Position numbers and translations under genes: made by a program. From assembly GCA_024663395.1 (NCBI GenBank), contig JANFAH010000017.1, positions 1,302,001-1,366,000 of the forward strand: a stretch of 64,000 bases of DNA, read 5' to 3'. The notes beneath the pieces were generated by a model. The model had not been told where the DNA came from and searched no databases. It saw nothing but the letters and a program-made list of their open reading frames with translations. The stretch's first letter is position 1. Every line of letters begins with the position of its first letter. Origin of the DNA: Pisolithus tinctorius (taxonomy: Eukaryota; Basidiomycota; Agaricomycetes; Boletales; Pisolithaceae). Below are positions 14,102 through 55,453 of the stretch, in pieces.

Positions 14102-14676
14102 CGTTGAGACTAGAAGGTGAGACCCAGCACTTTGTAGTGGTAGTGTTTTGTGACATGCACAGCATGGTCTGTGGAATAGTACTGGCAATGCGAGTGGTGC
14201 GAGTGGTATATGTAGTTCATGCATGGCAGTATGTGAGACATGTGGTGTAGACAAAGTGGAAAGGAAACTCATGGTGACCTTCCAAGTGCCAAAAGGTATT
14301 ATTCTGTACCTAAGTACAGTGCTTTATAGTCCGGGCAAACCCAGAACCTAAGTAAGACAGGGTACAAGTAAAGGGAAGCCGCATGACAGCACATACACAC
14401 AAGACAGGCCAGAACAGAGGCCGAGGGTATACTACAAGCGCTAAAGGAATAGAGACTGTGATAGGAGAAAGAGTCTGAGGGAAAAGAAGCAGCCAGAGCA
14501 CAGCAGCTGCAGGTATAACATTGCACAAGAGAGAACAAGGGCATGGGAAGGTAGCACGGTAGGCAGGAAGGTAGTATGTGAGCAGCAGTGAACGACAGGG
14601 GTCCAGGAATGTAATGATAGTTGTGGAATAGCCAAAGATAGGGGCCTGCATGTCCAAGGAATGTGGGTTCCTTACA
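14102..14676 (-). repeat. 5' LTR of gypsy A copy 2
   Basis: This 575-bp block is homologous to 7896-8446. On the minus strand it starts TGTAAGGAACCCAC; the inner border is placed by alignment to copy 1, where TCTCAACA ends the LTR (here TCTCAACG). The outermost 139 bases (14538-14676) are also part of the left palindrome arm and reappear inverted at 17879-18017. Confidence 0.8.
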
Positions 14677-16109
14677 ATGTGATCACATGAGAAGTGATGC
14701 ATAATTTAACTTCACTAGCAATGGGATACTAGTCTTGGCCAGCCAAAGTCATACTGTTGAGTCCTCTTGGGTACAGCAAGCAAAGCTAAGGCAGGTTGCA
14801 AAGTAGATTTTGAATGAGGAGCTGGTACAATACATGTGGGTTTATATATGTATGTAAAGTACCTGTGGAACAAACATTCAAAAACATTTAAACATCAACT
14901 GACATCCTTGTTAAGGCAAGATGAGTCATAGTGAGTTCGCTGTGCAGCAGGACTACATGTACAACCACATCTGCAGGTGCAAGGGTGAATGGGGTAAACA
15001 TAGGGAAGAGGGACTAACCGCATATATGACATCACACAGCTGTATCAGCTGATTTTGACCAAATGACCATGGTAATTACCACAAAAGCAGTTACAGAATT
15101 CATGGCAACTACCACTTCCCAATATAGACAATGCCCCCTGAGTGACAACCTCTGTCAGTGTTTGAAAAAAATTCAGATTGGAATGTTCCCACAGCAGGTT
15201 ACCCTGTCACACCTGTACTGTGGCTATACAGATGAGCATGTGACCAGTAGATGTGATGGTCACATGATGAGTGACATAAGCAGGGATGACCCTAGATCAC
15301 GTGATTTTTACGTAATTGATTACATGATGGTGATCCTGCGGAGCGTTCTGTTACGTAATTTATCACGTGATCGTGGGAAAATATGCATGTGATGTAATCA
15401 ATGTCACATGACAAGGTACAATTGTAGATCATCCAACCTATTACATAATGATCACATGTCAGTTTCTCCCCAGAACACTTGGTTATGTAATGGGTCACAT
15501 GATTGTGAGACAATAGGCATGTGACCACTCCTGCAGCATCACATGACAAGGTACGATCATAGATCATGTGACCTTTTACATAATGATCATGTGGCAATAA
15601 CTCTCCAGACCATTGGCTTATGTAATAGGTCACATGACTGTACTCATCATGTGATCTCACCTCTAGCACTCTGCATGTGACTCAATCCATATCACATGAC
15701 CAGCAATCCCACCCCTATTCGCATGCTGGGCATTTGTGGCTGTGCTAAAAATGCGAATTGTGTCCCCACCCATTCAATTCTTGACATATGGATCTGGATT
15801 TTTGTGTGTAGAATAGGCTACCATGTTGCTACACATTGTCAAAGGCACAGCTGGTCTTGTCCAGTAGTTGCTGAGATATAATGGAAATGAAAATGCCAAC
15901 AAAACATCACACCATTCAACTTACACATCCTTCACACCACATCTGAACCTCCAGGAGGGTTGAAGAAGATTCCTTCAATGCATTTCCAAAGTTTCAAGTT
16001 TATCCATGTAGAAGTGAGTGAACAGCAAGCTAAATACTGATCCCAGAAGTGTGGGAAAGCTTCAAAAAGAGAAAATAAAATAGTGGAGATTTTGAAAACA
16101 TATCAAAAA
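14538..16109 (+). repeat. Left arm of a 1,572-bp inverted repeat
   Basis: Every base x here pairs with position 32555 minus x in 16446-18017. Stretches checked at 14701, 14761, 15301, 15721 and 16021 match exactly, and translated mirror frames are identical across three long blocks, so there are no indels and probably no mismatches. The outer 139 bases are gypsy A LTR; the rest is not related to any element I recognise. Open frames in the arm (15063-15392 +, 15292-15669 -) have no motif and look incidental. Confidence 0.95.
15305..15700 (+). repeat. Three ~133-bp tandem units with TCACGTGA/TCACATGA motifs (left arm)
   Basis: Anchor segments starting GTTACGTAA (15350), GTTATGTAA (15482) and CTTATGTAA (15617) recur at 132 and 135 bases. 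Each is followed by a TCACGTGA or TCACATGA-like palindrome and a GCATGTGA-like element. Unit 1 keeps CpG (ACGTAA, CACGTG, GCGGAGCG); units 2 and 3 read TG or CA at those places. The mirror image lies in the right arm. Confidence 0.75.
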
Positions 16110-16445
16110 TGTGGATTTGCACACATCACAGTGACCCTGCCAACCCCAGACTTTGGGTGACGAATGCAGCAATATGGCCTACCATGTTGGCACCATGTGC
16201 CTGGTGAGATATCCACTTAAACATGTCAAAATTGCGAAAATGTGTGCAATGGGGTAGTGGTGTTGACCTTGCACTGGCATAAATCTCCAATTGTCTCAAT
16301 GAGTCAAGTGTACCATTTCGCATTTTTGACCATTTGCAGTGAGTATCACATCAGGCACTTGTTACTAATATCTTCCACCATGTCCCAATATCACTCACCT
16401 AAGCTCTGGTAGAGGTAGCTGCACTGTGGGATGTGCTGTGCTATG
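16110..16445. other. Unique 336-bp spacer of the palindrome
   Basis: This segment separates the two arms and has no partner elsewhere in the window. It is AT-moderate, has no long open frame of interest and no element I recognise. A unique spacer argues against a simple fold-back sequencing artefact but does not exclude it. Confidence 0.8.
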
Positions 16446-18017
16446 TTTTTGATATGTTTTCAAAATCTCCACTATTTTATTTTCTCTTTTTGAAGCTTTC
16501 CCACACTTCTGGGATCAGTATTTAGCTTGCTGTTCACTCACTTCTACATGGATAAACTTGAAACTTTGGAAATGCATTGAAGGAATCTTCTTCAACCCTC
16601 CTGGAGGTTCAGATGTGGTGTGAAGGATGTGTAAGTTGAATGGTGTGATGTTTTGTTGGCATTTTCATTTCCATTATATCTCAGCAACTACTGGACAAGA
16701 CCAGCTGTGCCTTTGACAATGTGTAGCAACATGGTAGCCTATTCTACACACAAAAATCCAGATCCATATGTCAAGAATTGAATGGGTGGGGACACAATTC
16801 GCATTTTTAGCACAGCCACAAATGCCCAGCATGCGAATAGGGGTGGGATTGCTGGTCATGTGATATGGATTGAGTCACATGCAGAGTGCTAGAGGTGAGA
16901 TCACATGATGAGTACAGTCATGTGACCTATTACATAAGCCAATGGTCTGGAGAGTTATTGCCACATGATCATTATGTAAAAGGTCACATGATCTATGATC
17001 GTACCTTGTCATGTGATGCTGCAGGAGTGGTCACATGCCTATTGTCTCACAATCATGTGACCCATTACATAACCAAGTGTTCTGGGGAGAAACTGACATG
17101 TGATCATTATGTAATAGGTTGGATGATCTACAATTGTACCTTGTCATGTGACATTGATTACATCACATGCATATTTTCCCACGATCACGTGATAAATTAC
17201 GTAACAGAACGCTCCGCAGGATCACCATCATGTAATCAATTACGTAAAAATCACGTGATCTAGGGTCATCCCTGCTTATGTCACTCATCATGTGACCATC
17301 ACATCTACTGGTCACATGCTCATCTGTATAGCCACAGTACAGGTGTGACAGGGTAACCTGCTGTGGGAACATTCCAATCTGAATTTTTTTCAAACACTGA
17401 CAGAGGTTGTCACTCAGGGGGCATTGTCTATATTGGGAAGTGGTAGTTGCCATGAATTCTGTAACTGCTTTTGTGGTAATTACCATGGTCATTTGGTCAA
17501 AATCAGCTGATACAGCTGTGTGATGTCATATATGCGGTTAGTCCCTCTTCCCTATGTTTACCCCATTCACCCTTGCACCTGCAGATGTGGTTGTACATGT
17601 AGTCCTGCTGCACAGCGAACTCACTATGACTCATCTTGCCTTAACAAGGATGTCAGTTGATGTTTAAATGTTTTTGAATGTTTGTTCCACAGGTACTTTA
17701 CATACATATATAAACCCACATGTATTGTACCAGCTCCTCATTCAAAATCTACTTTGCAACCTGCCTTAGCTTTGCTTGCTGTACCCAAGAGGACTCAACA
17801 GTATGACTTTGGCTGGCCAAGACTAGTATCCCATTGCTAGTGAAGTTAAATTATGCATCACTTCTCATGTGATCACATTGTAAGGAACCCACATTCCTTG
17901 GACATGCAGGCCCCTATCTTTGGCTATTCCACAACTATCATTACATTCCTGGACCCCTGTCGTTCACTGCTGCTCACATACTACCTTCCTGCCTACCGTG
18001 CTACCTTCCCATGCCCT
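16446..18017 (-). repeat. Right arm of the 1,572-bp inverted repeat
   Basis: Exact inverse of 14538-16109 as far as checked. It ends with 139 bases of gypsy A LTR (17879-18017), so an LTR piece flanks the palindrome on both sides in opposite orientation. An inserted element would not produce that; an inverted duplication that reached into the LTR would. Identity stops at 18017/18018. Confidence 0.95.
16855..17250 (-). repeat. Mirror copy of the ~133-bp tandem units (right arm)
   Basis: This is the inverse of 15305-15700, with the same three units in reverse order, including the CpG-keeping unit (ACGTAACAGAACG near 17198). The arms do not differ at these CpG sites. Confidence 0.75.
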
Positions 18018-18020
18018 CGT

Positions 18021-18080
18021 TAGTTGCCATGAATTCTGTAACTGCTTTTGTGGTAACTACCACATTGCTTGGTCAAAGTC
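18021..18080 (+). repeat. Third copy of an internal arm segment at the palindrome border
   Basis: TAGTTGCCATGAATTCTGTA and following bases repeat 17444-17503 in direct orientation, with small differences (GTAACTACCAC here, GTAATTACCAT there). It starts three bases after arm identity ends. This places a short, older copy of arm sequence exactly at the duplication breakpoint. Confidence 0.8.
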
Positions 18081-24498: not shown

Positions 24499-27400
24499 GC
24501 AAGGTATTCCTTAGATTCTTTTGGCCGAACCAATGCTAATCAATCGTCTTCTTCGCCCGTCAGGCATTCTCCATCACAGAAATGTTTGGCATAACAGTAT
24601 TCAAACAGTTGACCAGTACTACAAGCAAAAAACTTCGCCATTTCTTCGTTCCAACGATCGTGCAGGTGCCACTCTCTGAAAACGATTGGGGCCTCAGTGA
24701 ACTGTTGGAATTCATGTTTGTCCTTTTTATGCAATTCGGTGAGTAGCCTTTGTTGGAGATAATGCAAATCGGAAGGCTGGCTGATGCTGGACATGTCTGC
24801 AGAGCCCAATCTAATGCAGGCAAGCATCTCGATGAACATAGGGTCTGTTTTTGCTCGTTCATTTTGAACGAGCTGTACAACATGTGTTAAAGACCTCCAT
24901 AGAAATGCACCAAATAGTCGCCACTGAGATTTCACTGTTTCAAATGTACACCTTGTTAAGTTATTTACCACAGCATGTGAATATAATGCAGTACCATTTA
25001 CAGGACAGAGCTGGGCCATATTGCCAGTGAAGATGACATTGACCCCACCAAAGGGCAGATCCTTTTTGGTCGGATCCCCAGCTTTGGCCAGACTAATTTG
25101 ACTTGCAATGTCAGACAGAAGCTCTGCAGAGACCATCAAAACCTCATCCAAAACTAGATATGAAACATTGCACCAAATGTCCTGCAATTCATCCATGTCC
25201 ATGTTATGCTCATTACAACCCTGCTGCTGACCTTTCCAGTCCTTGCTAAAGGAGCATGTGTTCATGAGTGTGAGTGCATGAATTGTGAAACCATCTATGA
25301 GGCAGGCCACACTACCCATTGGTGCACTCAACAGGATTTCTCAGGAACGTCCCTGTTGTGTAAACATGTCCACAATGGCTCTAATAAGGTGGCTCTTACC
25401 AGAGCCTGCAATACCCGTAATGAACATCAACATCTGTTCCAGATCGTGCTGCAACATATGCTCGATTATTATTGTGAAGGCATGTCTTTGCTCAGGATTG
25501 TCTTGCAAGGTCCACTTGGAAACCATCTCTGACACAAAACTTTGGATTTCACAGTCATTGGTTGTGTCCTCTGCAGACAGTCGCTCCCTTTGGACAGACT
25601 CTACAGAGAGAGAAGCCACATTCCCCTCCACAGTTGTATGTGGGTGTTTCCGGATCCTTGAGCTTTCATTGATATTTGACTCGTCCTCTTGTGAACATCT
25701 TTGAGGTCTCTTTCGCTTTCGCTGTGAAGTCATGTATGTATTGTGGAGTGTTATCTGATCCTCGAGATTAGCACTGACTTCCATAACCTGTCCCTCCACA
25801 GTATGGGATCGCCTGTTCGAACATTCCTGCCCACAAAGAGCACAAGACATAGAAATTATGTCCATTTCATTCTGAGGTGGCCCCACCATGCCATGCCCAC
25901 CTGAATCGTCCGAAATCAATGCTTGCATGTCAACCTCGATTGCATAGTCCAAAGCAGAATCTTGAATGAGAGCTTCCCTCAACAGCTCAACATCATATTC
26001 ATGTGGCTTCTGTACACAGAAACCTGTGGACGCATTGCCATGGGAAGTCTTTGTAGTATAATCCCCTCGCACAATGTCCCTCACGTCCTTACATTCCAAT
26101 TCAATTAGGAAATTTGAGATAATCTGAGAGGACCATTTGGAGAAATGGTAAGTGTCAAATGCCTCCATCCAACAGGAATAATTCTGAAGCAACTCGGAAG
26201 GATTCTGCCAAGGTCGGAACAAAAGTAACATCACATGACAGAAATTCTCCATGTGGTAGTCCGATTTTCGTGGTAGAGGAATAGACTCCCCTAGCAGAAC
26301 TGGCACGATGAAGGTGTTGCAAATGCAGAGTTTGTGCGTTGCAAGCTGCGGATGGGTGTCATTAACAAACCTTGCATGTAATCTATGAGAATATGCCAGG
26401 TGCTCTGTAGTTCCAAAGCAGGCTTCATCTGCGTTCCCTGTGCATTGTTTGGGTGCAGCCTCTCTGGAACTTGACAAATGCTTGACCTTCTGCATTTGCT
26501 CCAGAAACTGCCATAAACACATCCCCTCGAATGGAGGAGCTGTAGGTCGCATTAAATAATCAAGAGTGTCCAACACCACAGACAGTGAACCCCCAGTTGT
26601 ATGTGCTGTGCATGTAGAGCCATAAAGATTCCCAGGACAATTGAGGGTGCTCCCTCTTTCGCAGTCACAATCACCATCAACGTGCCACTCATGTGCAATT
26701 GCGATATCCATGAATTCGTGAAAATGTACAGTGCGGAATTCATGAGCTGTATAATAATCTCCACCACCAATCAAGTAACTCATAACTTGTTGATGTGAGA
26801 CCTCACACCTACCCATCATGGCATTAACTGTCTTCGTTAACAGATTTCATTCATGCACAGAAGACAAAGATTCGATGTCATTTGAGAATAGCTTCTGATG
26901 GCTGTCAATGGCTGTGTGGATGGCTTGAAGCCCCACATGAACCTGTAAATCGTTCTTGGTAATATAATTGCTGATGTAGTAAGTCAATGCTTTCGCTGCA
27001 ACTCTGGAGCCCACACACTTGATATCCATATTACACTGCAGAAGAAACAAGGTAATGTCATTATAGTTGTTTATATGTGGATGAAGTTGACAAAGGACAA
27101 TAGACTGCGTCTCTGGATTGATGGAGGACTGCATCCATATGGAACCATCAATTTGCATACAACAATTTTCATCCCTGGGCTCCTCTCCAGGCCGAAGATG
27201 TTTAAAACAAGTTGGTGTATGTTTGTGCCAGTTACATTCAATAGCAAGACATCGCATGAACTCCTGAAAGGCATCCATGAAAGCATCATCATCATGCTCT
27301 ACAATCTGAGGGGGGAGTTGTAAATGAGCATCACGATCAACACCTTGTCATACAGGTTTGACAGGATTTGTTTCCATGGGATCAACACTATCAGGTGTCA

Positions 27401-39118: not shown

Positions 39119-39571
39119 TGTTATGTTTCACCCCTAACTTTTCCTCTTCTGTTGTACGTTTACTTTACTTTTGATCTGTTGGACTCAGTTTCCTTTTAGA
39201 GCCGTCTTCTCTCTGATCCAATGGCTCTCTATTTCCACCACTGGCATTACTAGCTCGTTACATGCTTAGGACATGTGTCGTCATTGTTCAACCAATGGTG
39301 TAGTTACCTCTAGTACATGAGGATGCCTCATGGTCCTCCTCTTGTAGTATTTAGGTCGCCAGCTCAAGTCCTGGAGACCCAGACTTGAGCTGCTCAATCA
39401 TACGCAGCGTTCTCAGAACTTCGCCCTCAGTGTCCCTAACAAGGACCACTCTTACTGGCGTCGCCCTAAAATCCTCTGTCGTTTACAGAGGTTACTACAG
39501 CCATCTGCTTAGTAGAAACCACAGTCTGCGTTTGAGCTCTCCCTACGTCTTGACTTCGGTCGAGCATAACA
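39119..39571 (+). repeat. 5' LTR of the chromodomain element
   Basis: Starts TGTTATGTTTCACC and ends GAGCATAACA. Alignment to 45514-45966 shows no indel. Differences are at 39157, 39279, 39282, 39299, 39324, 39360, 39408, 39459, 39462, 39480, 39502, 39529, 39546 and 39565 (first base of each dinucleotide), each CG, CA or TG. A hairpin (AGCTCAAGTC with GACTTGAGCT, 39361-39391) lies at the presumed transcript start. Confidence 0.97.
39348..39354 (+). promoter_or_regulatory. TATA-like box of the chromodomain element
   Basis: TATTTAG lies 33 bases before AGACTTGAGCT (39381), the segment that pairs with the primer site. That distance fits a core promoter with transcription starting at 39381. The 3' LTR has the same box. 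Inference from position only. Confidence 0.5.
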
Positions 39572-39573
39572 AA

Positions 39574-39584
39574 AGCTCAAGTCT
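39574..39584 (+). promoter_or_regulatory. Self-priming primer-binding site
   Basis: AGCTCAAGTCT, two bases after the LTR, is the exact reverse complement of AGACTTGAGCT at 39381-39391 in the LTR. In Tf1/sushi-type elements the first ~11 transcript bases fold back to such a site and prime reverse transcription. No TGG-type tRNA site is seen next to the LTR. Confidence 0.7.
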
Positions 39585-39657
39585 ACAGCCTTTGGCCAAA
39601 ATGGTCACTGCTTAGTGCACCACCACAAACCCCCGAAACAACTGATGTTGGGCGCCG

Positions 39658-40770
39658 TTGCAACCCACTTGCGAAGAATCGTCATCTGATGAAGAACAGG
39701 AGAGCACTGTCACAGACACCTCCTCCAACGAACCCGAACAACTGGATAGAGGCTTTACCTCTGGAATCCTCTCGAACCTCTTCACCCAGTCCCTCGCTTC
39801 ACTTGGTACACTGATCCCACCTGTACCTGCCACACTTCCTACACCCCTGATCCCACCACCAAATATGATGTCTGGTTCATCATCAAAGGGAACGACTGCC
39901 GCCTCTGGAGTCAAACCCACCGAACTGAAGATTGGTGCTCCAACTGATTTTGATGGAGACCAAAAGAATGCCATGAGCTGGCTATACTCCATACAGACCT
40001 ATCTCTTGGTCAACAAAGAACTGTATGACACTGACACCAAGAAGGTGGTCTACGCCTTGTCATACATGAAGAAAGGCATCGCCCGTTCTTGGGCTGCCAC
40101 CTACCAGAAAATAGCTCTGGAAAAAACCAATCCGAGCTTTGGAACCTTCACTGATTTTGTAAAAAAATTTAAGGAATCGTTCACCTCCGCTGACACCGCT
40201 GGAACCGCAATCGCCAAACTGCGGACCCTGAAACAAAAGGATTCGGTGGAGCAGTATATCATGGATTTCCGAACCGCCGCCGCCGACTCTACCATCATGG
40301 AAGACGTCGCCTTGATTGAGTTCTTCTCACAAGGACTCAAACCTTTCATCGCGAACAGGATTCACATGATGGAAACCACTCCCACCAAGATTACTGAGTG
40401 GTACACCCAAGCACAAAAGTTTGATGCCAAGTGGAGGAAGGTGAATGAATTCTCTGTGAAGAAGGAAAAGAAAACGTTCCACCCTAGGAACAATTTTGCT
40501 GAAGAAAAAGATCCAAACGCTATGGACGTGGATGGAGTGAGACTCTCCAAAGAAGAACGAGACCGTCACATCAAAGAAGGAAGATGTTTCGGTTGTGGAA
40601 ACAAGGGACATCTCTCCCGAGAATGTCCAGACAAGTGGAAAACTCCCCAGAAGAAAGTAAAGAAAATCCGCAAAATTGTGGAGGTAGAAGAAAGCGAAGA
40701 TGAAGAAAAAGTCGCTGGTCCATCCATTGCTCTGGTGAACATTGCTAGAGCCCTTGGAAAGGATTTTTAA
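39658..40770 (+). CDS. Gag of the chromodomain element
   Basis: A 370-codon frame without internal stops. After an acidic, Ser/Thr-rich start it has a capsid-like region (GAPTDFDGDQKNAMSWLYSI, DFVKKFKESFTSADTAGTAI) and, at about residues 310-324, one CCHC knuckle, CFGCGNKGHLSREC (C-x2-C-x4-H-x4-C), then a Lys-rich tail. Gag forms the particle and binds the RNA. No ATG opens the frame: TTG at 39658 is the first codon after an upstream in-frame TGA at 39643, and the first in-frame ATG is far inside near 39865, so initiation may use a spliced, non-AUG or mutated start. The stop is TAA at 40768. The absence of stops while pol has many may reflect few CGA codons. Confidence 0.88.
   Translation: MQPTCEESSSDEEQESTVTDTSSNEPEQLDRGFTSGILSNLFTQSLASLGTLIPPVPATLPTPLIPPPNMMSGSSSKGTTAASGVKPTELKIGAPTDFDGDQKNAMSWLYSIQTYLLVNKELYDTDTKKVVYALSYMKKGIARSWAATYQKIALEKTNPSFGTFTDFVKKFKESFTSADTAGTAIAKLRTLKQKDSVEQYIMDFRTAAADSTIMEDVALIEFFSQGLKPFIANRIHMMETTPTKITEWYTQAQKFDAKWRKVNEFSVKKEKKTFHPRNNFAEEKDPNAMDVDGVRLSKEERDRHIKEGRCFGCGNKGHLSRECPDKWKTPQKKVKKIRKIVEVEESEDEEKVAGPSIALVNIARALGKDF
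40763..40770 (+). promoter_or_regulatory. Candidate -1 frameshift site between gag and pol
   Basis: Gag ends GAT TTT TAA. Pol is open in the -1 frame through this point (TTT TTA AAT GGG). A ribosome with Phe-tRNA on TTT next to the stop could slip back one base onto TTT. There is no ATG at the pol start that would give the protease. Plausible, unproven. Confidence 0.4.
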
Positions 40771-43700
40771 ATGGGAACTCTGCGTTGACGCCAGATGTTC
40801 CCCAAACTAAGGACAGTTTAGTTTCTGTTGCGCCTGTACTTGTAACGTCTACACCGGAACGTACTATGCAGATCCCCATCTCCCTTTATGCATCAGAAAC
40901 TACCCTGAAAGTCGTCAACACTACCACTCTAGTTGACTCCAGAGCGGAAATCTCTTGTATTGATTGGGGTTTTGTGCGAAAACACCGAATCCCCACTCAA
41001 TGCCTCACCAAACCCATCCTCGCTAAAAATGCTGATGGAACCCAGAACTCAAAAGGAAGAATACTGTTTTCCGCCACTCTCTATTTTAAGGTTGAAGGAC
41101 TCGTCCACCAAGCCTTTTTCCATGTCATCAACTGTGGAATGGAAAACATCATTCTGGGTCTCCCCTGGCTTCAAGAAAACAACCCGGTTGTAGACTGGAG
41201 AATGGGCACATTGTCTATCGACAAGAAAACCGATAGATCAAAAGAATTGAGACGCAACATCTTTTCCGTTGCCATCGAAGAACCAACCGTGAACCTTGTA
41301 TCCCCTGCTGAAAAGAAAGGGATAAACAAGTTCATGGACTATGAAGAACCAGAAGATGAAACCATCCGAGCGCACTTCATGATGTCGGTTGGGAAACTCA
41401 TCGAAGAAGCCAAGAAGATCAACCCCAATAATAGTCTTCTTCGAAAAATCACCACAGCTACAGAATTAGCCCAAGAAGAACACAGAAAGAAACTGAAGGC
41501 TGTCCTCCCTAAGGACTATGAAGACTTTGCCTCGGTTTTCGAGAAACCATCTGATGGGGTCTTACCCCCATTGCAACCATACAATCATGCCATAAACCTT
41601 GTAGAGGACTTTGTCCCCAAGGTGGCCAAGGCTTATCTGCTCTCTCCCTCGGAGTGAGAATCCGCTGAAAAGTTTATCGAGGAAAACCTTCGAGAAGGAA
41701 AGATCCGTCCCTCGAAGTCTCCCCAAGCTGCCCCCTTCTTCTTCATTGGGAAGAAAGATGGTTCCCTACGTCCCTGCCAAGACTACAGGTACCTGAACAA
41801 GAATACTGTGAAGGATGCATATCCCCTTCCCCTCATCTCAGACCTCGTGGACAAACTGAAAGGAGCCTCTATCTTCACAAAGATGGATGTCAGATCCAGC
41901 TACAACAATGTTCGGATTAAAGAAGGAGACCAATGGAAGGCCACTTTCATCACACACAAAGGTCTCTTTGAACCAACCGTCATGTTCTTTGGGCTGTGCA
42001 ATTCTCCCGCCACCTTCCAGCGATTCATGCATGACTCTTTCAGAGATATGATCGCTGAAGGATGGTTAGTTGTCTATATGGATGACCTACTCATCTTCTC
42101 TACCGATCCCGAAGAACACAAACAAAGAACCCGTCATGTCCTCGAAAGGATGAGAGAACTCTCTCTCCCCCTGAAACTGGAAAAATGTCACTTTGATCTG
42201 ACCAAGGTCGAGTACCTAGGGATGATCATTAAAGAAAACACCGTCACCATGGATCCCATTAAGGTCCAGGGCATTGCTGAATGGCCTGTCCCAAAAAAGG
42301 TCAAAGACATGCGATCCTTTTTAGGATTCGCAAACTTCTATAGGAGATTCGTCCCCTATTACTCTGATATCGCCCGACCCCTTATTGATCTAACCAAGAA
42401 AACGGTCACTTGGGAATGGTCGAAGAAATGCCAGACCACTTTTGAACTCCTAAAAAGGATATTCATGGCACAACCGACCCTCCGAATGCCCGACATTTCT
42501 TGGCCATTCACAATCTCTACCAATGCATCCAAGTATGCAACTGGAGGTATTCTCCTCCAGGAAGATTCAAATGGTCAATGGCAACCCTGTGCTTTCATAT
42601 CTCAGTCGTTCAACCCTGCAGAGAGAAACTACGACATCTTCGACAGAGAGTTACTAGGGGTCATCAGAGGCTTGAAGGCCTGGAGACACTACCTCCATGG
42701 ATCTCCTTTCCCTGTCAAGGTCTTCACAGACCACAAAAATCTGACATACTTCAAGTCACCTCAGAATCTAAATCGTCGCCAGGCCCGCTGGCTCCTTGAC
42801 CTCGCAGACTTCAATCTGCAGCTAGAACATGTCCCAGGAAAAGACCTGGCTGCACCCGATGCACTCTCCCGCTGACCTGACCACATCCCTGATGATGATG
42901 ATGATGACAATAAAGGAGTCACCCTCCTCCCGCAAACCTTGTTCGTCAATCTCATTGACGCAAATCTCACCCAGAAAGTCGAGTCGTCTTCCATGAAGGA
43001 CCCTGTTGTCCAGACGGCGCTTTGGGCCATCGAAAACATTGATATGCCACTTCCGTTTAAGTCTCACCTCTCTGACTGGAAGTTCGACAATGGCATACTA
43101 CTTTACAAAGATCGGGTGTACATCCCCGATGACCCTGTCCTCTGATGGACTGTTGTGTCCAACCACCATGACCACCCCTCTGCCGGACACCCTGGTGTCC
43201 TGAAGACCCGACAACTCGTTTCATCCGAATTCTGGTGGCCTGGACTTGCGTCTTTCGTCCGGAAATATGTCGAAGGCTGTGCTACATGCCAGCAAAACAA
43301 GATTAACACACACCCAACAATGCCACCCCTTACGCCTATCCCCTCCACCTCGACCCACCCCTTCCAACAGATCTCTTGCGATCTGATCACCGACCTGCCT
43401 GTTTCTAATGGCTATGATTCCCTTTTGGTCGTGGTAGACCATGGGCTTACAAAGGGAGTAATCTTAACACCAACCAAGAAAACTGCCTCTGCTGCTGATA
43501 TTGTGGCGTTGTTTTTCAAGAAAGTCTACTCCTGCTTCAGGTTGTATGACAAAATCATATCTGATTGAGGCCCTCAGTTTGCCTCCACCTTTGCAAAAGA
43601 ACTCGCTTCCCTTTTGGGATACTCCCTTGCCTTGTCAACGGCATATCACCCACAAACTGACAGAGAGACTGAATGAGTAAACCAAGAGATCGAGACCTAT

Positions 43701-44501
43701 CTCCACATCTTCTGCCAAAACGACCCCACCTCATGGGTAAACAACCTCCCCATGGCAGAATTTGCGCACAATCACCACCCACACTCTGTCACCCATCAAT
43801 CTCCATTCTATCTCATGTATGGATACGAGCCGAAACCACTTCCGTCCCTGATTGCGGAAACCCATCTTCCCGCCGCCGAGTCTAGACTCAATGAACTCCG
43901 AAAAGCTAGAGAGGAGGCCCTAGCAGCCCATGACCTAGCAAGAAAAACGATGAAAGACCGCTCATCACGACCCTTCACCCCGTTCCAGAAGGGTGATAAG
44001 GTTTGGCTAGAAGCACGCAATTTGAAATGCTCCTATGAAAATAGGAAGCTTGCACCCAAGTGAGAAGGACCCTTCACTATCTCCGACGTCCTATCTCCCA
44101 TTATGTATTGCCTCATGATTCCCTCACGATGGAAGATTCATAACGTCTTCCACACTTCTCTCCTATCGCCCTATCGTGAAAATGACGTTCACAGACCGAA
44201 CTTCCCAGCTCCTCCGCCTGACCTTATCAACAAGGAGGAAGAGTACGAGGTTGAGGCGATAGTCAACCACAAGAGGTCTGGCCACGGACACGCCTTTTTA
44301 ATCAAGTGGAAAGGCTACCCCTCTTCCAAAAACTCATGGCAGAAAGAGTCACACCTTGAACATGCGGATGATACGCTCTCTGCTTATAAAAAATGCTTCC
44401 CAAAGGACTTTCCCCCTCAGAAACAATCCACTCGATGTTCCACCCATACCATCAGAAACATTACTCTTGAAATGCCTCCTCGTTGCTACACCTACCCCTG
44501 A
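40771..44501 (+). pseudogene. Pol of the chromodomain element (PR-RT-RNase H-IN-chromodomain)
   Basis: One frame, broken only by TGA at 41655, 42873, 43143, 43566, 43674 and 44061 before the TGA at 44499. Protease: VDSRAEISCID, where the usual DSG reads DSR (GGA to AGA at a CpG). [26 protein letters not shown] (near 42080). RNase [24 protein letters not shown]. Integrase: HHDHPSAGHPG with CATCQQNK, CDLITDLP, SD-x-GPQFAS, where x is TGA and the family has Arg. Chromodomain: YEVEAIVNHKRSGHGHAFLI, WKGYPSSKNSW. It would copy and integrate the element, the chromodomain guiding it to histone marks. Confidence 0.92.
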
Positions 44502-45476
44502 GAGCCTTCTCGCCACCACACTCTGTTTGCCCATCAGCAATGACAACCCGCTAGCAATCAGATGATTGCCTCATACCGACTCTTCATCGCCGACCCTGCG
44601 GTTCTCAGCACTGTCTATCATGAAGTGGATGAGAACTCTCCACTTGACCTTGTATACCACGCCACCATCCAAGCCCTTTGGCTTGAGGAACTTTCCCACT
44701 ATGTCAATCGCCAAAACCCCCTTCTGTCCCCCGCCCGCACCATTCTAAATGAAATCGCCGTTCAGCAGGTCCCCCTTTTACTTAGACTTTTCAATGTCCT
44801 TGGAGGCGCAGACCTCATCTACAACGTCCGTCAATATCCTATGCTAATCACTCCCCCTCCTCCTGGGTCTAGAAGACCCTCGACTGCAACCTCCCCTCCG
44901 GTTTCCTCCATGTTGTCCTCCCCTCCGGCATTGTCGCCATCATCGTCCTCCCACTCTTCCCGCTCTCTCCGAAGAGCCGACAGACCTTGCACCTGCTGCT
45001 TGTCAGGCCCTAATCCTCAGCCTTGCGAGTCTCACAGTTCGCCATCTGAGGTGGACCCTGAGATGGCCTTTGGCGTCTCCCGTGCTGAACTTGACTACAC
45101 ATTAAATATCATCGAAACCCTTGCTCAGTTGCCACCAACTCCTGTGCTAAACGCAATGATGGAGTTCGATAGACCCCTTACTCCATCCGATCCACACTAT
45201 TGTCAAGCATGTTACGTCTGTCGCTGCCTTGGCCATATCCACGTCAACTGTGGACAGTATGAATGTCTCCTTTGTCACACCACTCGTCCCAGGCATACTC
45301 AGGTCCAATGCCCTTCTATACGCCCTCGTCGTCCTTTACAGGACAGGATAGCTACCCCCACCCTGGTAGATGATCATACCCTCGTTGGGAGTGAGGATAA
45401 CGACTTGTGCAGCAATGATTTTGACTTTGATGACTCTGCCATCAGCAACATGACTGGAGAACCCTATGGAGAGTAG
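44502..45476 (+). pseudogene. Extra zinc-knuckle module in frame with Pol
   Basis: From ATG 44562 a 304-codon frame runs to TAG 45474. It lies in exactly the pol frame; only TGA 44499 and TGA 44541 separate them, both possible CGA. The protein has a helical N-terminal half (PLDLVYHATIQALWLEELSH), a Pro/Ser-rich middle, and near residues 215-255 two zinc-knuckle-like motifs: CYVCRCLGHIHVNC (C-x2-C-x4-H-x4-C) and CLLC-x6-H-x4-C. It has no membrane span, so it is not envelope-like. It could be a C-terminal Pol extension or a separate accessory protein; nucleic-acid binding is likely from the knuckles. Confidence 0.75.
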
Positions 45477-45500
45477 TTGAAGTCAGGGACTTCAACACTT

Positions 45501-45510
45501 AGAGAGGGGG
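45501..45510 (+). promoter_or_regulatory. Polypurine tract
   Basis: AGAGAGGGGG lies three bases before the 3' LTR. This is the expected place and composition for the primer of plus-strand DNA synthesis. Confidence 0.75.
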
Positions 45511-45513
45511 TAA

Positions 45514-45966
45514 TGTTATGTTTCACCCCTAACTTTTCCTCTTCTGTTGTACATTTACTTTACTTTTGATCTGTTGGACTCAGTTTCCTTTTAGAGCCGT
45601 CTTCTCTCTGATCCAATGGCTCTCTATTTCCACCACTGGCATTACTAGCTCGTTACATGCTTAGGACATGTGTTGTCGTTGTTCAACCAATGGCATAGTT
45701 ACCTCTAGTACATGAGGACACCTCATGGTCCTCCTCTTGTAGTATTTAGGTCGCTGGCTCAAGTCCTGGAGACCCAGACTTGAGCTGCTCAATCATACGC
45801 AGTGTTCTCAGAACTTCGCCCTCAGTGTCCCTAACAAGGACCACTCTTACTGGCATTGCCCTAAAATCCTCTGTCATTTACAGAGGTTACTACAGCTGTC
45901 TGCTTAGTAGAAACCACAGTCTGTGTTTGAGCTCTCCCTACATCTTGACTTCGGTCGAGCGTAACA
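45514..45966 (+). repeat. 3' LTR of the chromodomain element
   Basis: 453 bp, colinear with 39119-39571. At 8 of the 14 variable sites this copy has lost a CG that the 5' LTR keeps, at 2 it keeps CG, and at 4 the copies read CA against TG. CAGTG follows at 45967. Confidence 0.97.
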
Positions 45967-46446
45967 CAGTGCCTTAGCCAATCTCTCAGCCTCCAACCAT
46001 GTTCTCTCCTCTACCCACTCCTGGTAGTCCTCAAAAAGATCATCAACATTGAATCTGTGCTGCCCTTCTGGCTGCCAGAGATCTGCTATTGCTATCACCA
46101 CTGGGATCACCTTGTTCTGCCATATTGCAGATTCCTCGGTCATGTTGCATAGGTTGGCATCGTGCACCTTTGGGATGGAGATCTTGTTCTCATCAATGTA
46201 CTTCCACCATGAGTAGATCCCAGCCTGGGGATTGGTCAGTGCATTGTGTTGCATGGGCTCTAGTGCACTTACCCAAGTCTGGTCCCAGTCCTCCACCCAC
46301 TCGTATATCACCTCTAAGCTCTCCTTGGGCCATGGCACTGTGTTGATTAGCACCCTAACATGCCTTAATGCTGCTGACAGCGAGGTGATGGCCTGGTCCC
46401 TCATGCTGCAAACCGGTTGTGCATCATGGATTGAGTAGGCTTGCAT
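45967..46446 (-). pseudogene. Gene Z, first piece (N-terminus)
   Basis: Starts MQAYSIHDAQPVCSMRDQAI at 46446 and encodes about 160 helical, acidic residues (WPKESLEVIYEWVEDWDQTW, DLFEDYQEWVEERTWLEAER). The frame enters the 3' LTR after AERLAKAL. In the rejoined order N-terminal helical region, Gly/Lys linker and Zn2Cys6-like cluster follow each other, a layout I associate with repeated, uncharacterised Agaricomycete genes. Whether it is a host gene or part of a larger transposon is open. Confidence 0.5.
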
Positions 46447-49674: not shown

Positions 49675-52600
49675 TTATCTTACATCATGTTCAAGTGTAT
49701 GTACCTCACCGAGTACGTGATGAAAGCGTTTGGTGGCATCTACATATTTGAGAAGGTGTGGACAGGCTTTTGGGTTGGACAGTAGGAACGACAGGGAGGT
49801 AGCGTCTCTTCCTAGGGCTCTTTGCATGACGTACCACTCCCTGTCATATCTGGGACACTGGAATAGGAAATGATGCACGCTTTCCAAACTAGTCCTCCTG
49901 CATTGGAGGCAGGTGGGGGTGTTGCTTTGTTTGAGTCGGTGTAAGTGTTTGTTGAGTGGTGCGTGGCCTGTGCAGAGGTGCATGTAGAGGCTCATTTGTT
50001 TCTTGGGCAGGGAGGCGGCTAGTTTCACGAACAAGTTTTTGGGTAGGAATGGATCGATGCTGGTTGTTTTGTCATACCGGGGGGACTTGTTCCAGATTTG
50101 GGACCATAGGGTCTCCAGTCTCGCATTGTGCAGCTGCTTGAGGGTGGCCACACTATGGGGTAGGTTTTTCCTTAGCGCTGGTGGAAGCGCTTGTGGACGG
50201 CTGGTGAAATTAGGTCCTTTTGCTGCTATTTTTGCCTCTTCATCTGTGAGTTCATTGCCTTCTACTTTCATGTGGCCTGCTATCCACCGCAGTGTGATGC
50301 TTTTCCTTGCTAAGCATTCTTTGGTGGTGATTTCTTGGATTGCCAATCTGAGGTGCGTTAGTAGATAGTGTCCTGTTTTCGCTAGTGGTTGCTCACTCGA
50401 TTTGATCACTGCCTGGTTGTCAGCTAGTATGGTGGCTGGGAACATAACTTCCTCCTTGGTTGCAAGGAGGTGCACTGCGAGCAGCATTGCTGCCACCTCC
50501 GCCTCGAACACTGTGTGTTGCGAGGCACTTCCCAAGTGGTACCGCAGCATGGTTACATGTTGGCGGTCTACGTACAAGACCACTGCCACCCCTACACCCT
50601 CCTCCATGCTTGATCCATCAGTGAAGATTAGCATGCGGTCTCTTATTCTTGCTAGGTCTTCAATTGCTTCTTTTTTGTTGGGTGCTATGACAGTTGCATG
50701 TGACAGGCGTTCCATTGGTGGGGTTGGATACAGGAGGATAGTTTCGATTTGCCTGGGATTGACGTTTAGGTCATGTGTCAGACGGTGGAGTGCTGTTCAG
50801 TGGCACTTGACGTTAGTCCTGGCTGTTTTGCTGACGTGTATGTGGAGAGGGTGTTCGCTTGGTAGTGTCGAGAGTCTGAGCGATGCTTTGTATAGCGTAT
50901 GCTGTATAAGGAGTGATGCAGGGGGGATGTGTGTGTGTGCTAGCAAGGTGTCAGTGGGGGTGGTCCTCATGGCACCCATGATTGCTATGGCTGCTGCTCT
51001 TTGAACTGAGAGGAGATGGTTAGTTATACCTTTTGACCCTCTTGTTCTGGCGTTGTGATCTCTGGTATATGTTGGCTGGATCCATACTGGTGCAGCATAC
51101 ATCATCTTCGGTACTACCACTGTTTGGTAGAGTTGCCGCATGAGCTTCATCGGTATTCCCCATGATGTCGCAGATATTCTTCTAAGCAGTAGGGCTTGTT
51201 TCATGCCCTTCGCTATTGTGTGGGCCGCCTGTGTTTTCCATCTCAATTCTTGGTTGAGAATTACGCCTAGGAACCTGTGGGTCGTCGTGGGTGTTATTGT
51301 TGCACCTCTTATTGTTAGCGGGGGTTTGGGCTTGTTTCTGTTGAGCGTGAAGTCCATTAGTGCAAATTTACTTGTCTCAAAACATGAGTTGTGTTTCTCT
51401 GACCAGTCGAAGCCTCCTTCCTCCCGTTCCATCATGTCGGATAATGTCAAGTGGGTGTCTTCGAAGTTCTTGCCAATGGCGATGAATGCCATATCATCCA
51501 CGAAGGCTAGGGTTAGTTCTTTTTTACCTTTTGCCGTTTCCACTAAGTCCACGCTGTAGATGACATATAGGATCATCAATAGGGGGTCTCCTTGTCCTAT
51601 GCCGTTCTTGATGTGGAACCAGTTTGACTCGTAGTCGTCAAAGCATAGTTTCATCTTCCTGTTTGTTAGTAAGCGCTCCATATAGTGGACTATGTCCGGG
51701 GGAAGTCGTCTTTTTCTCATATTGTGTAAGAGTTGGTCTGTGACTGCATTGGGGAATGCACCTTCTATGTCCAGGAACAGCACGGATACTACTTTTCTTT
51801 GTCTCCATGCGTGCTGTATGGTTGTCTTGAGTAGTAGTAGCGAGTCCTCTGTCGATCATCCTGGTCTGCCACCAAAGTGAGTTGCTGGGAGTAGTTGGTG
51901 CTTTTCCAGTATGTATGATGTCCGTTCTGCTACTATTGCTGATAGTAGCTTTGCCGTGGTGTTGAGTAGCGCTATTGGTCGGTAGGCTTTTGGCGTCAAG
52001 TAGTCAGGCTTGCCTGGTTTTCTGAGTATGATTGTGGTGGATTCCCTCCAGGGGTCGTAGTATGTCCGCAGGGTGAATACTGCATTGAAAGAGTGTAGTA
52101 AGTAATCGAGTAGTAGCAGAGATTTCTGAAACACGATATTGGCTACACCGTCTGGTCCTGGCACTTTGTAGGGGTTGAGGTTCTTGACAGTGCGGGTGAG
52201 CTGATCCTTTGTGATGGGGTCCCACATTGTTGCTGGTTCCGGGTAATCGTAGTTTTGCGGTACCGACAATTGGATCGGGGGTGGTGGAAATAACATCTGT
52301 GCGAACATTTTGCTTTTGTCTTCGTTGGAGCTGGCCAGGGTCTCGTTGCTGTCCTCGCTGGTCTTTTTGAGAGTCGGTATTCTGGCTTTGCTTCCATCTC
52401 CATAGGGCTTGGAGATGTATCCGTTCGCTATCCAGAGGTCGCCGTCTCCTGCTTCTTCCAACCAGTTTCTCCAGTGGTTCTTCTTTGCTTCTTGGATAGC
52501 CCTGTCATAGGCTTTTGCCTTGTCCTTACGCAGCCTGTGACTTTCGTGATTGTGAATGGCACGGAAGGCATATGAGGTTTTACTTAGCGTTTTGAGTTCT

Positions 52601-53613
52601 TTGCATAGGGCCATTAGCTCCTTTGTCCACCATCTTTTCATGTGCGGGTGTGGTCGCGATTTTGGTACTACCTTCTCTAGTGTGCTTCGTAGCGCTGCTT
52701 CGATTCCTCTTGTTTTTCTCTGGAATTCTTGCACGTTGGCTATTACTCTTGGGGGGCCGACCTTAGCGAGTTCGGTTTTGAGTGTCTTGTTGAATTCTTT
52801 CCAGTCCATGTCCTGGTAGTTGTAAGTCAGGGTCACCGTAGATGGGGTGAGGTCTGCTTCGAGGTACGTCAGGATCGGGACGTGGTCTGTATTGGGGCCT
52901 CTGTCCTCCGGTCTTGTGTCACAGCTGACCAGGTTCTCCATCGTTGACTCCATACAGAACACGTTGTCTGGGCACGTCCAGTTGCCTGTGGAGGACGACT
53001 GGAGGGTGGGTATGCCTTTGGGCAGTGCTTGTACTAGCCTGTAGTCTGCTATTAGTTCTAGTAGCTTCTGGGCGGATCCGAGAGCTCTTGTTGTGAACAG
53101 ATGGTGGTTGTGGTCCTCGTCCCATAGGGGGTGGTGTCTGTTAAAGTCACCCAACCACAGCATGTGATCGTTCACCGTTGTCCTGACCTTTTCTATGTTC
53201 GCGGTGAGGAAGGTGCTTAGGGCCTCCAGGGTCTGGTCATGTGTGCAGTCGTTGTAGATGTTGAATATTGCATAGGTGTCCTTGGCAGTTCTTAGTTGTG
53301 TTACTACGACGTCCACAGATGGGAAGGCGATCTGTTCCCAGGAATTAGTGCTTATTCTAGAATTAATTAGAGTTACCGCTCATGGTTTGGTGTTTTGTGT
53401 TAGCTTTGTTGAGGGGTATACGACCTTCCAATGGGTGTTGGCCTGTATGTTGCTGATTTGATCGATTGGTGGTTCTTGAATGGTGATTACGTCCCATTCG
53501 TCTGCTATTTGACTGTTTATTAGCGAGTGTAGTGCAGTGTGAGAAGTATTTAAGTTTTGCTGCCATATGCGTATTTTGGTTAGCGTATTGGTGCGTGTTC
53601 GGCGTTCAGGCAT
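49675..53613 (-). pseudogene. LINE ORF2: endonuclease, reverse transcriptase, RNase H
   Basis: One minus-strand frame, about 1,312 codons, interrupted only by TGA at 53380, 51856 and 50797; Arg fits each (GGRPG-x-STEDSL at 51856 is canonical). Endonuclease: IQEPPID, LGDFNRHHPLWD, TDHVPIL. RT: PGPDGVANIVFQ, FLDIEGAFPNAV, GIGQGDPL, AFVDDMAF (FVDD active site). RNase H: IFTDGSSMEEG, FEAEVAAMLLAV, LADNQAV, GNELTDEEAK. C-terminal CLQC-x9-HHFLFQC knuckle. It nicks target DNA and copies its RNA there. Start ATG 53613 overlaps the ORF1 stop. Confidence 0.92.
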
Positions 53614-55453
53614 CGATCAAGGATGGGGTGGGGTCCGGATTTATTGGCTGTAGTGTTGTCACAGGGGCAGGCTGGGTTGGTGCTGGGTCGCTGTTGGTGT
53701 GGTCATTGCGTGTTTGAAAATAGTGTGTTATGGGGCCTCCTCTACCTCCTCTTATCCTGCTGTTTTGGCCTCGCTTTGGTGGGATGGTACGGATGTTTGC
53801 TGCCTCTCCTAGGGTCATCTGCCTGAATTGGCTTGGAGCATTCGGTTGCATCATTGGGGGTCTTGTTGGTATGATTGGGTTAGCCGGTCTTGGTGGTAAT
53901 TCGACGTGTGTCCACTCTTCAGTGGTCAGGAAGTATGGCATGCAGTTCTCTGGGGTGCGATCGTCCATTGCATTGCGTCTTCTGGCTAGGTCTGGGCAGT
54001 TTCTGTCGGTGCTGGGGTGAGAGTCACTTTGGCAGTTAATGCAGTAATGTTTGGTGGAGTCACAGTCCTGCATATGATGGGTTTGTGTGCAAATGCCGCA
54101 CGTGTCTTCTGTTTGTTTGCAATCTCTGGCTAAATGCCCAATACATTGGCATTTTAAGCATCTGATCGGCTCCTTCTTGTCTTTGTGGGGGCGGAGTCTG
54201 TCGAAGCCCCAGTATAATCTGTCTCTAAGTAGTTGGTTAGCGACTTCGGGGGATGTCAGGGAGGCGAGTGCATGTGCAACTCGCTGGGTGGGGGCATGTT
54301 TAGCTGGGTCTTTTATCCATTTGATTTGAGTGATCAAGCCTTGCGGGATGTTGTTCGCACTTTCCATGTTGCAGAGGGTTTCTGGCCTTTCGGTGTCGGT
54401 TGTGATTGGGAGGAAGGGGATCATGATGTTGTATTGTCGGTCTTTGATCACGGCTTCGCCTCCTAGTCTTGTGAGGAAGGTTTCTTTGTTGGGTGCTGCC
54501 TTTATCCATGCTGCTGCTTCCTGGCTGTTGAGTTCAATCAGGATGCTGTTGTTGTGGAGTTGTGCGATCGATTTTAGTTGCATATCCGGGCTGTCTATTC
54601 TGTCCACTGATTCCAATGCCTGTTTGATGTGGTCGATAATGGTTTCCCTCGGGGTGGTGCTGTTTAAGAGGTGGTGGTTGCTGTCGGGGTCGATGAGTAT
54701 TTGTCTTTCTTTGATGGTGGTGTGGGCCTTGGCGTATTCCAGTGAGAGTTGCTTGCCTAGGGGGATCTGGTTTGGGTTGGGGGGGGTCGATGCTAGCGTG
54801 TCTCTGTATGGTGTTGGGGGAATGGCATGGTTTTGAGTCGCTATGAAGGTTTTCATGTCTTCCAGTGATTCCTTTATTGTGCCCATATCGGCTATCAGGT
54901 CCTGGACCTTGCTCTCTAGCTGGTTGGAGTCCGTGCTGTTGACTGTGCTGGTGAGGGATTCTATTTTTTCAGTGATGTGGCTACTTAGCATTTCAGCATC
55001 CTCGTTGATTTTTGCTAGGTTTTCGGAGGCTGAGAGGATTTTGGCGACTTGAGGGGATATGGCTGCAACGACAGAGGTCTCTAGTCTTTCTGATATGGCT
55101 TTAGTGATGGATTCAGCAATTTCCAATGTTGCTAGGTCTCTGACTAGGTATGCTGTTGCGTGGATGGCTGATCGTAGGGTGTTGCTTACTCCCTTCGCCT
55201 GTGAGATGTAGAAAAGGGCATGGGATATGTGTTCTGGAGTAGTCGGTTCTCCCTGTATCGTGTAGAGCTGGTCTAGGAATATTCTGGCTGATTCCAAGTC
55301 TTTTATTTCAGTGTCTGGGTCATTGACAATTTCCTCAAGGGAGAGACTGCCGCTTCTGGTGGCCTTGCTGAGGTTTGACACACATGGGGCTGGCGGGGGT
55401 CCTGGCATGGCGTGGGAACTTGACCTCGAGGACGTTCGTCCTGTCGAGGTCAT
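53606..55453 (-). CDS. LINE ORF1: nucleic-acid-binding protein with zinc knuckles
   Basis: 615 uninterrupted codons. The N-terminal half is helical and may be coiled-coil (SENLAKINEDAEMLSSHITE). Near residues 430-490 lie knuckles starting CLKCQCIGHLARDC (C-x2-C-x4-H-x4-C) then CGIC and CINC motifs; the C-terminus is Gly/Arg rich (IRGGRGGPITHYF). ORF1 proteins coat LINE RNA and help target-primed reverse transcription. It ends GAT GCC TGA, sharing ATGCCTGA with the ORF2 start. Because the frame is intact the protein could still be made. Confidence 0.9.
   Translation of the reverse strand: MTSTGRTSSRSSSHAMPGPPPAPCVSNLSKATRSGSLSLEEIVNDPDTEIKDLESARIFLDQLYTIQGEPTTPEHISHALFYISQAKGVSNTLRSAIHATAYLVRDLATLEIAESITKAISERLETSVVAAISPQVAKILSASENLAKINEDAEMLSSHITEKIESLTSTVNSTDSNQLESKVQDLIADMGTIKESLEDMKTFIATQNHAIPPTPYRDTLASTPPNPNQIPLGKQLSLEYAKAHTTIKERQILIDPDSNHHLLNSTTPRETIIDHIKQALESVDRIDSPDMQLKSIAQLHNNSILIELNSQEAAAWIKAAPNKETFLTRLGGEAVIKDRQYNIMIPFLPITTDTERPETLCNMESANNIPQGLITQIKWIKDPAKHAPTQRVAHALASLTSPEVANQLLRDRLYWGFDRLRPHKDKKEPIRCLKCQCIGHLARDCKQTEDTCGICTQTHHMQDCDSTKHYCINCQSDSHPSTDRNCPDLARRRNAMDDRTPENCMPYFLTTEEWTHVELPPRPANPIIPTRPPMMQPNAPSQFRQMTLGEAANIRTIPPKRGQNSRIRGGRGGPITHYFQTRNDHTNSDPAPTQPAPVTTLQPINPDPTPSLIDA

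Follow-up and report, generated by a model that had tools for sequence, protein, structure and literature searches.

The retrotransposon and its LTR pair

The window analysed here is a stretch of 64,000 nucleotides (C17:1302001–1366000) from the 92.5-Mb genome, in 221 contigs, of the ectomycorrhizal fungus Pisolithus tinctorius. Judged by its sequence features, the element at 39119–45966 is a Ty3-type chromodomain retrotransposon, with LTRs, a 5-bp target duplication, gag, the order protease, reverse transcriptase, RNase H and integrase, and a chromodomain; among the pol pieces scanned, the integrase was represented by its zinc-binding domain alone. The features are as follows, in window coordinates:

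16446–64000, no strand: duplicated segment, extending beyond the window end; 99.85% identical to C133 over 54.8 kb, with shorter overlaps to C115, C44, C110 and C45
39114–39118, no strand: left 5-bp target site duplication (CAGTG)
39119–39571, plus strand: 5′ LTR; 15 CpG remaining, 6 CpG-type changes assigned
39658–40770, plus strand: gag (Pfam domain matches Ty3_capsid and Retrotrans_gag)
40785–41657, plus strand: pol piece, aspartyl protease (RVP_2)
41658–42875, plus strand: pol piece, reverse transcriptase and RNase H
43146–43568, plus strand: pol piece, integrase zinc-binding domain (Integrase_H2C2)
44064–44501, plus strand: pol piece, C-terminal chromodomain (PF00385)
44544–45476, plus strand: extra open frame downstream of pol, 310 aa from stop to stop
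45514–45966, plus strand: 3′ LTR; 9 CpG remaining, 12 CpG-type changes assigned
45967–45971, no strand: right 5-bp target site duplication (CAGTG)

The pol frame is interrupted by stops, and all eight stops found are TGA, the stop produced by a CpG transition; of these, the final one or two could mark a natural end of the frame. The 310-aa frame stays open although pol of the same element is broken, and the 304 aa counted from its initial start codon gave no Pfam match. The nearest relatives of gag were P. tinctorius copies (best, 84% over 96%). The final 1.5 kb upstream of the 3′ LTR (L010) aligned at approximately 84% and free of indels to four of the eight other loci compared (L019, L024, L022 and L026), while two of the remaining four aligned with 2 indels and two aligned poorly.

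Base-by-base comparison of the two 453-bp LTRs (39119–39571 and 45514–45966) gave a gap-free alignment with 18 differing bases, which fall into 14 dinucleotides that read exclusively CG, CA or TG. This agrees with the sequence-only reading, which had reported 14 variable dinucleotides of these kinds and no other difference or indel. Ten of the sites are CG in one LTR and CA or TG in the other, with CG retained in the 5′ LTR at eight and in the 3′ LTR at two; four are CA in one LTR and TG in the other, so that the hits on opposite strands proposed in that reading were correctly identified; and a further seven CG are common to both LTRs. With random single transitions on this LTR, 19.5% would be expected to be CpG-type, and 14 of 14 would arise by chance with a probability of about 1e-10. 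A Neurospora-type CpA preference was not seen in the pair, which has no changes outside CpG-type sites. Gene conversion from another insertion was considered as the source of the LTR difference and rejected: in an alignment of 18 LTRs of the family, with 35 CpG-type columns, 79 of the 387 non-CpG columns vary (gaps counted), compared with none in this pair.

Five independent insertions of the family

The genome-wide LTR survey proposed with the first reading was carried out in part. We searched the genome with the LTR, scored the best 40 of 604 candidates, and extracted 30 loci, those nearest to this LTR. Both LTRs were recovered for 11 copies, which were reduced to five independent insertions by collapsing the six duplicates described below and the pair C130/C26. 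All five agree with one another, and all belong to one LTR family chosen among the closest hits. The CpG-type sites per insertion numbered 14, 12, 11, 13 and 15, and the other differences 0, 2, 1, 0 and 2, giving pooled totals of 65 CpG-type and 5 other differing sites (65/70); these counts support the earlier description of the process as strongly CpG-directed and fast relative to background.

By class, the pooled sites comprised 41 CG/CG, 53 CG/mutant, 12 CA/TG and 5 other. Under a model in which every CpG in each LTR is hit independently, half becoming TG and half CA, the loss per CpG per LTR was 0.42 (0.35–0.49), and the five single pairs gave similar values (0.34–0.50). The per-cytosine rate at CpG was approximately 220 times that of other bases (94–677), where the intervals of this and the later rate ratio carry the uncertainty of the other (non-CpG) changes alone. 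A ten-fold ratio would predict 112 other changes in the five pairs and a ratio of 50 would predict 22 (P=1e-5), against the 5 observed.

A sixth comparison, between two copies with a common 3′ flank (L027 and L030), gave 12 CpG-type differences in the LTR and 5 in the flank, with 0 others in either; it was kept outside the pooled rates and included in the strand and context counts. Between separate insertions, the CpG-type share over the alignable internal 1.5-kb ends was 0.27–0.53, a value to be expected if the other changes predate insertion.

Decay after duplication of the segment

The LTR pair described in the sequence-only reading is real; to this we add that it sits in a segment found in six places (C17, C133, C115, C44, C110 and C45), which align over 20 to 55 kb with 99.77–99.93% identity, and that it represents one insertion copied, not six. 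The C45 and C110 copies reach a contig end. The six-fold occurrence would reflect either duplication or unresolved haplotypes. The same difference between 5′ and 3′ LTRs was present in all six copies, whose contigs may share reads and are thus not fully independent, with 14–16 CpG-type sites per pair. Other LTR substitutions were absent from five copies and amounted to three adjacent bases in the C44 copy, while the C110 and C45 pairs each had one 1-base indel. Independent insertions carrying the same LTR difference were ruled out, since the flanks of the six copies match.

Over the 54.8 kb shared by C17 and C133, a duplicate far younger than the LTR pairs, we detected 31 CpG-type and 5 other substitutions, corresponding to a rate ratio of 116 (50–357); a ratio of 220 predicts 2.6 other changes, and 5 were seen (P=0.13). 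The changes were spread over 9 of 11 bins of the segment. The same alignment contains 36 indels, 34 of them single-base, and the one-base indels are probably assembly errors. A second, poorer alignment of the two contigs covers 9.4 kb where C133 begins and contains 67 indels; it gave 2 CpG-type and 5 other substitutions. Across all six copies, 31 variable sites were CpG-type and 11 were not. In one CpG-rich stretch near the contig end (observed/expected about 1, approximately 344 CpGs), which from its open frames looks by eye like a gypsy-like element, C17 and C133 differ at 10 CpG-type sites and 1 other; the stretch may be too young for a verdict.

Single-copy control and background repeats

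As a single-copy control, we compared the DNMT1-type locus on C3 and C59, taken to be two alleles. The alignment of 3,993 bases contained 48 substitutions, of which 17 were CpG-type, with a rate ratio of 4, CpG observed/expected values of 0.99 and 0.97, and a divergence of approximately 1.2%. This control, a single and partly coding locus of 4 kb, differed from the LTR pairs (17/48 against 65/70; P=2e-11) and from the C17/C133 duplicate (P=3e-6). The question raised with the first reading, whether single-copy DNA shows the bias, is therefore answered at the one locus compared, which does not share it (17 CpG-type and 31 other).

The whole window shows a CpG deficit alongside a TG/CA excess. 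In 10 of 11 older repeat pairs in the window, the CpG-type share was 0.11–0.65, and the eleventh pair has one change only; three of these pairs gave ratios of 47, 45 and 11, below that of the LTR pairs, the pair 37767/63192 being excluded from the ratios. The older pairs probably arose as separate insertions of copies that had already diverged. One 1.5-kb flank free of internal 12-base repeats contained 0 CpG against 77 expected. A second flank, 1.5 kb past the 3′ LTR of L014, is repetitive, with 57% GC and 0 CpG against 123 expected; it abounds in repeated 12-mers, and we left it out as evidence. Other repeats in the window include an inverted repeat at 14534–18021 (1,576-bp arms, 99.94% identical, 336-bp spacer), in which the sole difference is CpG-type, PIF1-like helicase pieces at 24540–26819 on the minus strand, perhaps of a Helitron, and a non-LTR element at 49675–55453 on the minus strand with endonuclease, reverse transcriptase and RNase H matches.

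Strand and sequence context of the changes

Strand runs were not found over the six LTR comparisons: of 79 neighbouring hits, 44 were on the same strand (P=0.37), as were 10 of 26 lying within 30 bp of each other, and the strand totals were 49 TG and 42 CA. In the C17/C133 duplicate, 23 CG/TG and 8 CG/CA changes were counted, an imbalance with P=0.011. ACG was favoured in the duplicate (16/31 against a background of 24%, P=0.001) and TCG was low (5/31 against 34%, P=0.04), both P values being uncorrected. In the LTRs, A preceded 46 of 91 mutated CpGs compared with 33 of 102 (P=0.01, uncorrected), and T preceded 17 of 91 compared with 31 of 102. The preference for T before the mutated CpG that characterizes the Pucciniomycotina-type process was found neither in the duplicate nor in the LTRs. 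With ACG favoured and TCG scarce, the pattern is similar to the deamination signature of humans.

Methyltransferase, repair and TET genes

A PF00145 profile search of the genome gave three matches, of DNMT5 and DNMT1 types, from which gene pieces were read: a DNMT5-type gene on C6 and a DNMT1-type gene with a BAH domain on C3/C59. The former matched, with an E value of 1.9e-73, a PDB chain deposited as Rad8, which we take to be Cryptococcus Dnmt5. No RID-type methyltransferase was seen among the three matches of this exon-wise search, which has limited sensitivity, ung having been missed by PF03167. The DNMT1-type gene is adjoined by a DnaJ-type gene whose closest named proteins are from P. 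croceorrhizus (79%) and P. marmoratus (78%).

A missing uracil-DNA glycosylase was dropped as a candidate cause: PF03167 gave no match, yet TIGR00628 found ung pieces, so that the PF03167 result is a failure of sensitivity, and repair may still play a part. The ung pieces on C5 and C84 look allelic, and a second ung-like gene, distinct from this pair, lies at C2:4478394–4479275. Matches to HhH-GPD glycosylases were present in the genome, as were at least 150 Tet_JBP matches (150 scored of 186 candidates), some with stops.

Probable gradual deamination and alternative mechanisms

The LTR pairs of one family show a CpG-only spectrum that continued after the segment was duplicated, the bias at one single-copy locus is much weaker, and the genome holds genes of both methyltransferase types. 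We estimate at about 0.7 the probability that these patterns reflect gradual deamination of CpG 5-methylcytosine (5mC) maintained by DNMT1/DNMT5-type enzymes, rather than bouts of repeat-induced point mutation (RIP). The element would have inserted with two identical LTRs and then been methylated at CpG by the DNMT1/DNMT5-type maintenance pair; 5mC would occasionally deaminate to T, independently on either strand, to give TpG or CpA, and each LTR is estimated to have lost about half of its CpGs in this way with all else unchanged. The sites would thus be methylated, the contrast between repeats and single-copy DNA would hold genome-wide, and spontaneous deamination with poor T:G repair would act rather than an enzyme-driven hit. 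Basidiomycete 5mC is described as CpG-preferring, located for most species in TE-rich regions, and kept by DNMT1-RFD and DNMT5, according to the available text of a 2026 review (PMC13297926).

The similar ratio at two ages, the lack of strand runs, and the raised ACG with low TCG lean towards gradual deamination, short of proof. The earlier statement that deamination and a RIP-like process are indistinguishable by sequence was therefore too strong. The little-hit CpG-rich duplicated stretch also agrees with gradual deamination, or may simply be young. Several results pull the other way: the 23:8 strand imbalance in the duplicate, the lower ratios of the older repeat pairs, and the second 9.4-kb alignment of C17 and C133. 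The similar loss across the five insertions would equally result from one bout per insertion. The CpG rate excess in mammals is roughly ten-fold, and a ratio of 220 lies far above this, which counts against gradual deamination; the ratio would be unremarkable beside the rate for methylated cytosine, higher by nearly 20,000-fold, that is quoted, together with a five-fold vertebrate CpG depletion, in the accessible part of a review (PMC9624357).

An active CpG mutator restricted to repeats, driven by a methyltransferase or TET and operating in the vegetatively growing dikaryon at over 100 times the background rate, would be neither classic RIP nor plain deamination, and we consider it doubtful; passive and active CpG mutation are made testable by mutation accumulation. 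A RIP-like CpG-directed mutator, scanning duplicated DNA in the sexual phase and mutating in bouts, is also unlikely. It would account for a CpG-directed bias that repeats show and the single-copy locus does not, for the very high rate ratio, for the similar loss in five insertions, and for the strand imbalance, and Amselem et al. (2015; PMC4352252, as far as its available text goes) have proposed RIP-like mechanisms behind the CpG signatures of basidiomycetes. However, strand runs are absent, the ratio is similar at two ages, and the low TCG is the opposite of the TpCpG target described for Pucciniomycotina in the available part of PMC5381629. In addition, none of the three PF00145 matches is RID-type, at limited sensitivity, and the CpG-rich duplicated stretch is little hit, though maybe too young.

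A methyltransferase-dependent mitotic mutator aimed at CpG, like Dim2 of Zymoseptoria, appears improbable. The contrast between repeats and single-copy DNA and a ratio above the passive expectation would suit it, and there is a precedent in a dim2-proficient isolate, in which more than 95% of mutations arose in 5mC regions during mitotic growth (PMC8016269, in the portion available); however, the Zymoseptoria process hits CA and spares CG, and no sequence feature here requires an active step. Even less probable is a hastening of CpG to TpG change by oxidation of 5mC through transposon-borne TET/JBP enzymes, an analogy that would draw on the abundance of Tet_JBP matches and on the oxidized methylcytosine described on Coprinopsis transposons, retrotransposons included (available text of PMC12730594). 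Finally, although 36 indels beside 36 substitutions between C17 and C133 indicate an assembly not fully polished, an assembly slip behind the LTR difference is unlikely and an assembly or base-calling artefact at methylated CpG scarcely credible, given an identical difference in six contigs, LTRs of otherwise the same sequence, CA against TG at single sites, and the window-wide CpG deficit with TG/CA excess.

Comparison with known systems and consequences for LTR dating

CpG-biased decay of basidiomycete repeats is already published, as the available portions of three reports document (PMC4352252, PMC8063080 and PMC6980582); the new elements here are an effect size taken from LTR pairs, a control within the same genome, and what follows for the dating of LTRs. 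No title or abstract was found that used agaricomycete LTR pairs with a single-copy control as a measure, a weak absence in a search that left subscription journals mostly uncovered. The following comparisons draw on the accessible text of each report. TEs of Austropuccinia psidii (PMC8063080) share the CpG depletion, which there rises with TE age and is ascribed to 5mC deamination with poor T:G repair; that fungus is a rust, of another subphylum, and was analysed by TE age classes, whereas we used LTR pairs, a recent duplicate, a single-copy control and a measured ratio. Repeats of Tricholoma matsutake (PMC6980582), also an agaricomycete, show CpG-biased C to T change, with a masc2 homologue present and rid/dim2 lacking; that work presents the change as RIP, leaves the mechanism open, and in its accessible text gives no LTR-pair rates. 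The RIP-like TpCpG mutation of Microbotryum (PMC5381629) likewise has a CpG-containing target in basidiomycete gypsy elements, but T before CG is preferred there, whereas here TCG is low and ACG favoured. SNPs of Rhizoctonia solani AG8 (PMC4014442) show an agaricomycete CpG to TpG bias in genes and repeats alike, unlike the strong effect in repeats and the weak effect at one single-copy locus found here.

With its internal control, the comparison of LTR pairs measures by how much the CpGs of fungal repeats can outrun the rest of the genome. As stated in the available text of an earlier study (PMC5689174), an LTR burst in P. tinctorius was dated to 25–30 My by K2P at 1.05e-9 per site per year. 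Measured against the one single-copy gene region, CpG decay here is strong enough that it can make young insertions seem more than ten times too old, and should more families behave likewise, the insertion ages published for such fungi would be inflated approximately ten-fold or more. At the same rate, the K2P ages of our five pairs were 14–21 My (mean, 17.9), and the pooled non-CpG sites gave 1.2 My.
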